Assembly: GCA_902584365.1 (NCBI GenBank) | Contig: CACHZG010000001.1 | Span: forward strand, 101,261-165,260 | DNA from: an uncultured Pelagibacteraceae bacterium | GTDB taxonomy: Bacteria; Pseudomonadota; Alphaproteobacteria; Pelagibacterales; Pelagibacteraceae | Length of the DNA stretch: 64,000 bases | Direction of reading: 5' to 3' | In this document: piece by piece, positions 24,885 through 27,891 of the stretch | Numbering within the stretch: position 1 is the stretch's first letter | How the letters are laid out: each line of letters opens with the position of its first letter | Program-made: the position numbers and the translations under genes | The notes under the pieces: generated by a model | The model's input: only the letters and a program-made list of their open reading frames with translations | The model's database searches: none | Told to the model about the DNA's origin: nothing

Positions 24885-25223
24885 ATGACTTATTACGTTA
24901 AGGATGAATGTATAAAATGCAAATTAACAGACTGTGTTGAAGTATGTCCGGTTGATTGTTTTTATGAAGGTGAAAATATGTTGGTTATAAATCCTGACGA
25001 ATGTATAGATTGTGGCGTATGTGAACCTGAGTGCCCTATTGATGCTATAAAACCAGATGTTGATGATATTGAAGATAAGGAAAAATGGGTATTGATAAAT
25101 AAAAAGTATTCTGCAATATGGCCGAATATTACAAAAAAAAAAGATCCTATGAAAGATCATGAAAAATTTAGAAAAATTAAAGACAAATTTAAAAACCACT
25201 TTTCAGAAAAACCAGGAACATGA
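24885..25223 (+). CDS. fdxA: 7Fe-type ferredoxin
   Basis: [47 protein letters not shown]. Confidence 0.95.
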
Positions 25224-25891
25224 TGAAGAAGCGAAAAAAAACTAAGAAAAAATTAAAAAAAAAAATTAAAACGAATGTAAAGAAAAAAATTGCTTCACAA
25301 ATATTGCAAACTAATATCGAAAAAAAGACAGCGGCAGATGCAGATCAAAAACCCGTAATCACCAAAATTAAGAAACAAGCCACAGAAAAGAGAGTATATA
25401 ATTTAAAAGACTTCGTAGTTTATCCTAAACATGGGGTAGGTAAGATTATAGCAATAGAAAAAGCAAAAATTGGACAAATAGATATTCAGTTCTATAAAAT
25501 ACTAATAGAAAAAGAAAAATTGACTTTAACTATTCCAATAAATCAACAAAGTAATTTAAGACCCATTTCATCAATAAATCAAATTAACAAGTGCATATCT
25601 ATATTGAAAACAAAACCGAAAATTAAAAGGACTATGTGGAGCAGAAGAGCTCAAGAGTATGACCAAAAAATCAACTCTGGAAAAATTTATGAATTAGCTG
25701 AAGTTGTAAAAGATTTAAATAAAAATAGTGACATAATTGCTGATCAGTCTTATTCGGAAAGACAACTTTTTGAAAAAGCTTATGAAAGGCTCAAATCTGA
25801 ATTTGAAGCTGTTCTTACTATAAGTTCAGATGAAGTTAAAAAGAAAATGGATAAAGCTTTAGGCAGATTAAATCTTGCAGATGAACAATAA
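25220..25891 (+). CDS. CarD-family transcriptional regulator
   Basis: Lys-rich N-term, then [17 protein letters not shown] ... [32 protein letters not shown] overlap with fdxA. Confidence 0.95.
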
Positions 25892-25892
25892 A

Positions 25893-25927
25893 AAAACGCC
25901 CTTTTAATAATTATTAAAAGGGCGTTT
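25893..25927. terminator. Bidirectional terminator (AAACGCCCTTTTAAT...ATTAAAAGGGCGTTT) between carD-like gene and convergent poly-basic micro-ORF
   Basis: Long perfect inverted repeat flanked by A/T runs. Confidence 0.85.
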
Positions 25928-25940
25928 CTAAAAAGAAAAA

Positions 25941-26006
25941 CTATCTTCTTCTTCTTCTTTTTTTAGCTTTTTTCTTTTTTTTAGCTTTTTTTCTTCTTTT
26001 AGCCAT
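25941..26006 (-). CDS. 21-aa poly-Lys/Arg micropeptide, not in ORF track
   Basis: MAKRRKKAKKKKKAKKRRRRR*; SD-like aagGGAGagaag upstream; convergent terminator downstream. Confidence 0.65.
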   Translation of the reverse strand: MAKRRKKAKKKKKAKKRRRRR

Positions 26007-26214
26007 CTTCTCTCCCTTGTTATTAAACAAATCTTAATGATTCGTTTGTTAATTAAACATTAATTATTAAAAGATTCATGTCAAACATAAATTAATTTGC
26101 AAATTTGATTCAAAATTAAATTTTTTTAATTTATTTTTAATTTTTAAAGAAATTAAAAAAAGTTAGTAATATCAATGTTTTTTTAAGCAAATAAATTAAG
26201 TTTTAATTTAATTT

Positions 26215-27891
26215 TTAGTAAAGATTTTCAAGTTGTTGTTTATAATTTTTAATTATTTCTTTTCTTTTTAACTTTAAAGTTGGTGTTAACATTCCGTTTT
26301 CAACTGTAAATTCTTCATTAATTAGTACAAATTTTTTAATTTTTTCAATTAAAGTTAAACTTTTATTTGTATTTTCAATTGTAAGTTTAATTTTTTCTTC
26401 AGTAATTTCCTTTTCACTTACAATTAATGCAACTAAATAATTTTTTTTATCTCCGTACACAAAAGATTGTTTAATATTTTCATTTAAGCATAAAATATTT
26501 TCAACTTTACTTGGAGATATGTTATCTCCACCAAGATTTACAATAATATCTTTTTTTCTATCAGTAATTTTTAAATAATTATTTTTATCAAGCTCTCCTA
26601 TGTCTCCAGTATGAAGCCATCCGTCTTTAATTGCTTTTTCTGTCTCTTCTTTTAAATTCCAATATCCCAACATAACGTTTTCACCTTTAATAAGAATTTC
26701 TCCATCTTCTGCTATTTTCACTTTATTTGTTCTAAATGGTGGTCCCACCGATTCGACTTTGACTAAATCTGGTAAATTACAGCTTACTACCGGGGAGGCC
26801 TCAGTTAATCCATAACCTTGAAGGGTGGGTAGACCTACAGCATTTAAAAACTCTCCAATATTTTGATCTAGAGCCCCTCCCCCAGATACAAAAGCCTGGA
26901 GATTGCCACCAAATTGATTTCTGATTTTTTTTCTCACTAATTTTTCACATAAAAGATTTATGATTTTTTCACCCAAACTTAATTTTTCCTTTTTGAGGAT
27001 TTTTTTTCCTAAATTTAAAGTTTGATTTATAAGTTTCCTTTTAAGTCCTGATTGTTTCTCAAAATTCATATTTATTTTTGTAAAAAGGTTTTGATAGAAT
27101 CTTGGTACAGCAGTCATGATTGTGGGTTTTGCAACTCCCATATTAGAAATCAGTTTTTCTAAACTTTCAGCATAGAAAACTTTTGCTCCAACTATAATTT
27201 GTATAAATTGAACTGTGTGCTCATAAGAATGTGATAAAGGTAACCAAGTCAAGAATACTGGATTTTTTTTTGAGATTAATGTTTCTAATAATTCAACTGC
27301 ACCCTCACAGTTTGATAAAATACCTCCATGGCTTAAAACAACACCTTTAGGATTTCCTGATGTTCCTGAGGTATAAATTATGCAAGCAGGCATATTTCTC
27401 TTTAAATCTTTATTTTCTATTTTTTCGTTAATTGCTTCATCTAATATTTCTTTAATTAATAAACTTTCTGTATCTATTTTTTCAAAGGATATTATTTTTT
27501 TAACATCACTGTTTATAAACTTTTTAATTTTATTGAATTGATCTTGATTTGAAACAAATATTAATGAGGGCTTGCAATCATTTAGAATATATTCATAATC
27601 GTTTGCAGAATAAGTTGTAAAAATAGGAACTGAAATTCCCCCAGCATTCATAATAGCAATATCTGTCATTAACCAATATGGTCTATTCTCAGAAAGTATT
27701 AAACATCTATCACCTTGTTTTATTAGCGATTTAATCTTTGTGGTAAGTTTATAAATTCTTTCAGTTATATCTTCCCAATTATAAGTTTGCTTATCTGGTT
27801 TTAACCATTTTAAGAATGGTCTTTTGCCGTCAACTTCTTCTTTTTTTTTGAAATAAAGTTCAACTAAGCTATTTAATTTTTTTATTTCCAT
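26215..27891 (-). CDS. AMP-binding long-chain acyl-CoA synthetase family protein
   Basis: CIIYTSGTSGNPKGVVLSHGG, QGYGLTEASPVVSCN, GWLHTGDIGELD, TDRKKDIIV. Confidence 0.9.
   Translation of the reverse strand: MEIKKLNSLVELYFKKKEEVDGKRPFLKWLKPDKQTYNWEDITERIYKLTTKIKSLIKQGDRCLILSENRPYWLMTDIAIMNAGGISVPIFTTYSANDYEYILNDCKPSLIFVSNQDQFNKIKKFINSDVKKIISFEKIDTESLLIKEILDEAINEKIENKDLKRNMPACIIYTSGTSGNPKGVVLSHGGILSNCEGAVELLETLISKKNPVFLTWLPLSHSYEHTVQFIQIIVGAKVFYAESLEKLISNMGVAKPTIMTAVPRFYQNLFTKINMNFEKQSGLKRKLINQTLNLGKKILKKEKLSLGEKIINLLCEKLVRKKIRNQFGGNLQAFVSGGGALDQNIGEFLNAVGLPTLQGYGLTEASPVVSCNLPDLVKVESVGPPFRTNKVKIAEDGEILIKGENVMLGYWNLKEETEKAIKDGWLHTGDIGELDKNNYLKITDRKKDIIVNLGGDNISPSKVENILCLNENIKQSFVYGDKKNYLVALIVSEKEITEEKIKLTIENTNKSLTLIEKIKKFVLINEEFTVENGMLTPTLKLKRKEIIKNYKQQLENLY

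Follow-up and report, generated by a model that had tools for sequence, protein, structure and literature searches.

A 21-residue polycationic peptide gene convergent to carD in SAR11 bacteria and its longer, H1-like counterparts

Introduction

The H1-like proteins of bacteria include AlgP of Pseudomonas, Hc1 and Hc2 of Chlamydia and BpH1 of Bordetella, which carry Lys/Ala(/Pro)-rich tails and vary in size with the number of their repeats. The known ones are roughly 100–350 aa long; in AlgP, a helical domain is found apart from the tail. Smaller basic proteins are the ribosome-associated eL41 of eukaryotes and bTHX and bS22 of bacteria, which are highly basic and about 25 aa in length. AlgP is a DNA-binding protein with KPAA repeats that associates with polyphosphate (PMC9239181), and the size of Hc2 varies from 165 to 237 aa through Lys-rich pentamers (PMC2848022).

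The gene described here lies in a 64,000-nucleotide stretch of DNA from an uncultured Pelagibacteraceae bacterium (GCA_902584365.1, contig CACHZG010000001.1), referred to below as the window. It belongs to a series of SAR11 genes whose products share with the H1-like proteins a Lys/Ala(/Pro)-rich composition and size variation through repeat number. The window peptide differs from those proteins, however, in being only 21 aa long, without Pro, without another domain and without a Pfam match, and no H1-like protein known to us comes close to being so short. It resembles eL41, bTHX and bS22 in size and basicity, but there is no sequence match, and the SAR11 peptide varies several-fold in length among relatives. 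HU and IHF (PF00216) are also basic nucleoid proteins, but they form a structured 90-aa family that is encoded separately in the SAR11 genomes checked.

The peptide gene and its neighbors

The gene, its ribosome binding site, its terminator and the flanking genes are located as follows:

25941–26006, minus strand: 21-aa polycationic peptide gene MAKRRKKAKKKKKAKKRRRRR, identified by translation, conservation at the carD locus and a codon-position test
26012–26016, minus strand: Shine-Dalgarno (SD) sequence GGGAG, 5 nt ahead of the peptide ATG
25892–25929, minus strand: intrinsic terminator of the peptide transcript, with a 17-bp stem and a T-rich tail
25220–25891, plus strand: CarD-family transcription factor (PF02559, PF21095), convergent neighbor with a Lys-rich N-terminal tail
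26215–27891, minus strand: AMP-binding (acyl-CoA ligase-like) gene (PF00501), about 210 bp upstream of the peptide gene

A preliminary description, made from the letters alone, had proposed an ORF at 25941–26006 with an SD-like GGAG upstream and a carD-like gene convergent to it. The minus-strand translation is indeed MAKRRKKAKKKKKAKKRRRRR followed by a stop, GGGAG is found at the expected place, and the neighbor matches both CarD models. The number of basic residues, put at 18 of 21, has to be corrected: Lys and Arg make up 17 of the 21 (0.81). A “long bidirectional terminator” had also been proposed. The 17-bp terminator is present and is the only one called in the region (shuffled sequences give a mean of 0.1), with a T-tract that reaches the end of carD. 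However, “bidirectional” is a weak description, as TTTCT alone comes after the hairpin on the carD side. Since the call was made on the minus strand only, the terminator belongs mainly to the peptide gene.

An in-frame TTG eight codons upstream, which would add MFNNKGEK, was ruled out as the start: the stretch from the TTG on includes the SD, and relatives either lack these codons or have different ones. With a length of about 160 nt, the locus forms a gene that stands alone and consists of a promoter, a 5′ stem-loop, the SD, 21 codons and the terminator. A leader peptide is excluded because no gene follows in the same direction. The plus-strand neighbors encode a Suv3-like helicase, a TerB-domain protein, the ferredoxin FdxA and CarD.

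Searches of Pfam, NCBIfam and the PDB returned no relevant family for the peptide. The 21-mer has no Pfam match at E 0.001, PF00216 included, and the longer forms have no relevant Pfam match even at E 10, including the Hc1 and Hc2 models. There is no sign of an origin from a phage gene; a search of a viral collection gave a single match, to an unrelated longer protein.

Conservation in SAR11

Orthologous loci were found by using CarD as the anchor. Within the genus of the window, a K/R/A(/T) ORF of 20–25 residues convergent to carD is present in 29 of 29 loci from a first search, the window’s own included. Throughout Pelagibacterales, the ORF is found at all 86 readable carD loci, 74 from one family and 12 from a second; L053 is counted among these, though its ORF has only a non-ATG start and is missed by ATG-only searches, and L077 of the second family is outside the 86, as its downstream sequence ends too early. 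The frame is thus conserved next to carD, one of the points on which the preliminary description had staked its proposal. Among 28 carD loci of other Alphaproteobacteria, none has a Lys-rich convergent ORF. A 21-codon, Arg-containing frame at L224 (0.43 K+R) appears to be accidental.

An independent DNA-pattern scan of GTDB genomes yielded at least 118 stretches, and in at least 91 of these the pattern is convergent to carD; of the remaining ones from SAR11, most break off where the sequence ends. L154 and L201 have the usual helicase, TerB and FdxA genes and, at the carD position, a convergent ORF rich in Lys that the scan motif missed. In the record of strain HIMB058, the peptide is present and its leader is the same.

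Genomes scored as lacking carD were considered as a test of independence from carD, and none of the 18 has the peptide. This test was dropped: 16 of the 18 also lack fdxA, and at least seven have a contig that breaks off within the neighboring ligase gene, so that most of these genomes represent assembly gaps. Contigs often stop inside the ligase gene (L245–L250, L252 and L253), and assembly breaks cluster at the peptide locus. In G199 (L251), other genes follow the ligase instead, possibly a true rearrangement.

The peptide gene is therefore real, with positional orthologues conserved throughout the Pelagibacterales loci examined, and is an order-wide gene that has probably gone unannotated.

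Proteins rich in K, A and P with a similar MAKKRKKA-type start and repeats also occur in HIMB59-like MAGs, Bradyrhizobium, Planctomycetota and Bdellovibrionales, but there is no carD beside the readable ones. Two marine alphaproteobacterial MAGs, which we take to be HIMB59-like, encode KKAAPKRR-repeat proteins of 55–68 aa (L111, 4436–4642; L166, 7345–7512) upstream of an ABC-ATPase/ccmA-like cluster. Their leader contains two hairpins (GGAGG...CCTCC) and is unrelated to that of the SAR11 peptide.

Coding evidence

The 108 distinct ORFs contain 2334 purine-only codons, in which G falls at position 1 in no case, at position 2 in 645 and at position 3 in 484. This pattern describes constraint rather than probability, as the sequences are relatives of one another and the ORFs had been chosen for K+R ≥0.5. 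The codons are AAA (1232), AGA (618), AAG (457) and AGG (27), with GAA, GAG, GGA and GGG all at 0; start codons were left out of the test, as were the 8 N-terminal residues of the long forms. Since G is excluded from codon position 1, the ORF is protein-coding by its codon pattern and not a mere purine-rich tract. The reading frame of the peptide has 0 acidic residues; the two other frames have 525 and 448, and one of these two also has 518 stops. Every one of the 108 distinct ORFs ends in K or R. Over their 3148 codons, counted with the same omissions, K+R amounts to 0.75 and Ala to about 0.20, with no Asp or Glu, a composition dominated by K, R, A and P as in H1-like proteins.

Two strong hairpins flank the ORF, and the whole transcript of about 160 nt has a z-score of −6.3, as might be expected of a structured small RNA in which the ORF is incidental. 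However, the codon-position pattern, the exclusion of acidic residues and the conserved SD spacing make such an RNA extremely improbable.

AAG codons tend to break runs of A: the mean longest run is 7.3, versus 9.5 when the Lys codons of an ORF are shuffled among themselves (relatedness uncorrected). The tendency is clearest in single long-form sequences and absent in some short ones. It perhaps avoids slippage of polymerase or ribosome.

Size series

The peptide is 20–25 aa long in the genus of the window and 21–46 aa in other genera of the same family, for example MPKKRKKAAKKTKKKAAKKTKKKAKKAKKAKRRKR; the 46-residue maximum (L209) counts from an upstream ATG, and the length is 36 from the ATG that follows its SD. 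In the second family, the range is 40–91 aa, mostly 76–91 aa, with KKAAPKKKK/KAAKRKP repeats, for example KKAAPKKKRKAAKRKPAKKK, following a short start of the form MEELK(V/I)IFAKA or MEDLKI(I/L)FAAA. Tandem KAAP/KPAA-type repeats are present in the 76–91 aa orthologues and absent from the 21-aa window form. The orthology of short and long forms is based on position, promoter, stem-loop and composition, as sequences of such low complexity do not support homology statistics. One family strongly conserves M[AP]K[KR]RKKA as the start motif; bulk charge alone would not demand this, a point against the nucleic-acid-condensing role proposed below.

The preliminary description had compared the peptide to the tail of histone H1, and this comparison is strengthened by the syntenic second-family copies, mostly KKAAPKK-repeat proteins of 76–91 aa. 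The main rival is a basic peptide that associates with the ribosome or RNA, like eL41 or bTHX/bS22, and neutralizes rRNA or aids assembly. The peptide resembles tiny ribosomal proteins in charge and, at 20–46 aa in one family, in size, and it has dedicated, conserved expression signals. However, a length of 20–91 aa across lineages, reached by repeat expansion, is unlike a protein fitted to a ribosomal site, and the short forms have no hydrophobic or aromatic contact residues. The 21-mer matches no solved ribosomal protein (phmmer, E up to 10, a weak test for so short a query), and the long form has one weak, composition-type match (E 0.52). We consider ribosome association unlikely, though worth keeping in view.

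The CarD neighbor

In Pelagibacterales, CarD has a Lys-rich N-terminal tail ahead of its RID domain, about 55–125 residues in intact genes (25220–25400 in the window). Such a tail is missing from most other alphaproteobacterial CarD proteins examined, and a few (L210, L212 and L219) have K/A-rich tails.

The peptide might be a partner of CarD and RNA polymerase that influences transcription together with the Lys-rich tail of CarD; alternatively, it might bind polyphosphate. The convergent carD neighborhood is invariant, and from lineage to lineage the CarD tail lengthens with the peptide (Spearman 0.72, for loci of one family and uncorrected for relatedness). In addition, the H1-like AlgP associates with polyphosphate granules (PMC9239181). 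However, convergent genes need not interact, the support comes from the neighborhood alone, and the correlation of lengths may reflect only shared ancestry. Such a partnership is decidedly improbable, below even a ribosomal role.

Promoter and leader stem-loop

Two further elements were found upstream of the SD:

26079–26084, minus strand: −35-like box TTGACA of the peptide’s own promoter, at a conserved distance from CGAATC
26025–26047, minus strand: 5′-leader stem-loop AAACGAAUC-AUUAA-GAUUUGUUU, −7.2 kcal/mol, z −4.15

In 163 of 165 leaders, TTGAC(A/T) begins 38–42 nt ahead of CGAATC, which is invariant, and GGGAG is spaced 5–6 nt from the start codon in 150 of 166 distinct leader+ORF sequences. 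A terminator, too, accompanies nearly every copy of the gene. In the window, the −10 element is weak (TAATGT at 26057–26062, with 16-nt spacing), and a consensus promoter scan consequently made no call for the peptide promoter. With standard sigma-70 geometry, the position of TTGAC(A/T) suggests that transcription starts within a few bases of the CGAATC stem-loop, which would thus form the 5′ end of the mRNA.

CGAATCA makes up the 5′ arm of the fold in 115 of 117 distinct leaders (mean z −4.5). Covariation is limited, since the 5′ arm is nearly invariant: there is G-U versus G-C at one pair and A-U, G-U or G-C at another, and three genera have longer stems in which the 3′ arm is new. An RNA stem-loop accounts better for the displaced 3′ arms and the widespread G-U pair than a palindromic DNA operator would. 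A genome-wide element was rejected: where the exact form was found, there is one per genome, as in the genome of the window.

In leaders of the second family and of genera g5 and g8, among them L030 and L071–L076 (second family), L055, L056 and L209, a CUCC or CCUC can pair with the SD, a possible translational switch.

At the Rfam gathering score, only a tRNA was matched within the window, and the leader matches no family; sub-threshold matches fall on the terminator region and none is relevant. A structured-RNA screen of P. ubique (Meyer et al. 2009, PMC2704228) lists no carD-flanked region in its Table 1, and carD, ferredoxin, histone and lysine are unmentioned in that paper. The order-wide conserved CGAATC leader is undescribed.

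Proposed function and significance

Taken as a whole, the preliminary description is partly supported: its frame proved to be conserved, and the likeness to H1 tails is strengthened. The promoter, the 5′ stem-loop seen throughout the order and the size series had gone unnoticed in it. The current thinking is that the peptide is probably a stably expressed, disordered polycation that binds and condenses nucleic acid alongside HU, a reading drawn from sequence comparison. It would act without sequence specificity, neutralizing and condensing nucleic acid, with chromosomal DNA as the likeliest target. The absence of acidic residues, the several-fold tolerance in length and the H1/AlgP-like long forms favor non-specific binding to polyanions, most probably in the nucleoid. 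Composition does not separate a DNA target from RNA, the ribosome or polyphosphate. HU-family genes were present in all 12 genomes checked, with two or three per genome, so that the peptide was rejected as a substitute for HU and would rather be an accessory to HU/IHF-type proteins.

A 5′-terminal stem-loop can shield an mRNA from 5′-end-dependent decay. The leader may protect a short, well transcribed mRNA in this way, or it may take part in controlling how much peptide is made. A bolder and rather doubtful proposal is that the gene encodes a dedicated “bacterial protamine” of the SAR11 core, a polycation that genome streamlining has cut down to about 21 residues and whose amount would be set by the order-specific 5′-terminal stem-loop (CGAAUC...GAUUCG), possibly through feedback from free peptide binding to its own leader.

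No description of the peptide gene was found in the open-licence PMC literature. H1-like polycations as such are already known; the short SAR11 form and its conserved leader appear to be new. Trypsin destroys such a Lys/Arg-rich peptide, and trypsin-based proteomics together with ORF length cut-offs would hide genes of this kind. SAR11, the most abundant bacteria of the ocean, carry a core polycation gene, of which the 20–25 residue form in the genus of the window would be the most reduced H1-like version, in a streamlined lineage. With a syntenic series that falls from 91 to 20 residues, it becomes possible to ask how short an H1-like tail can be and still function.
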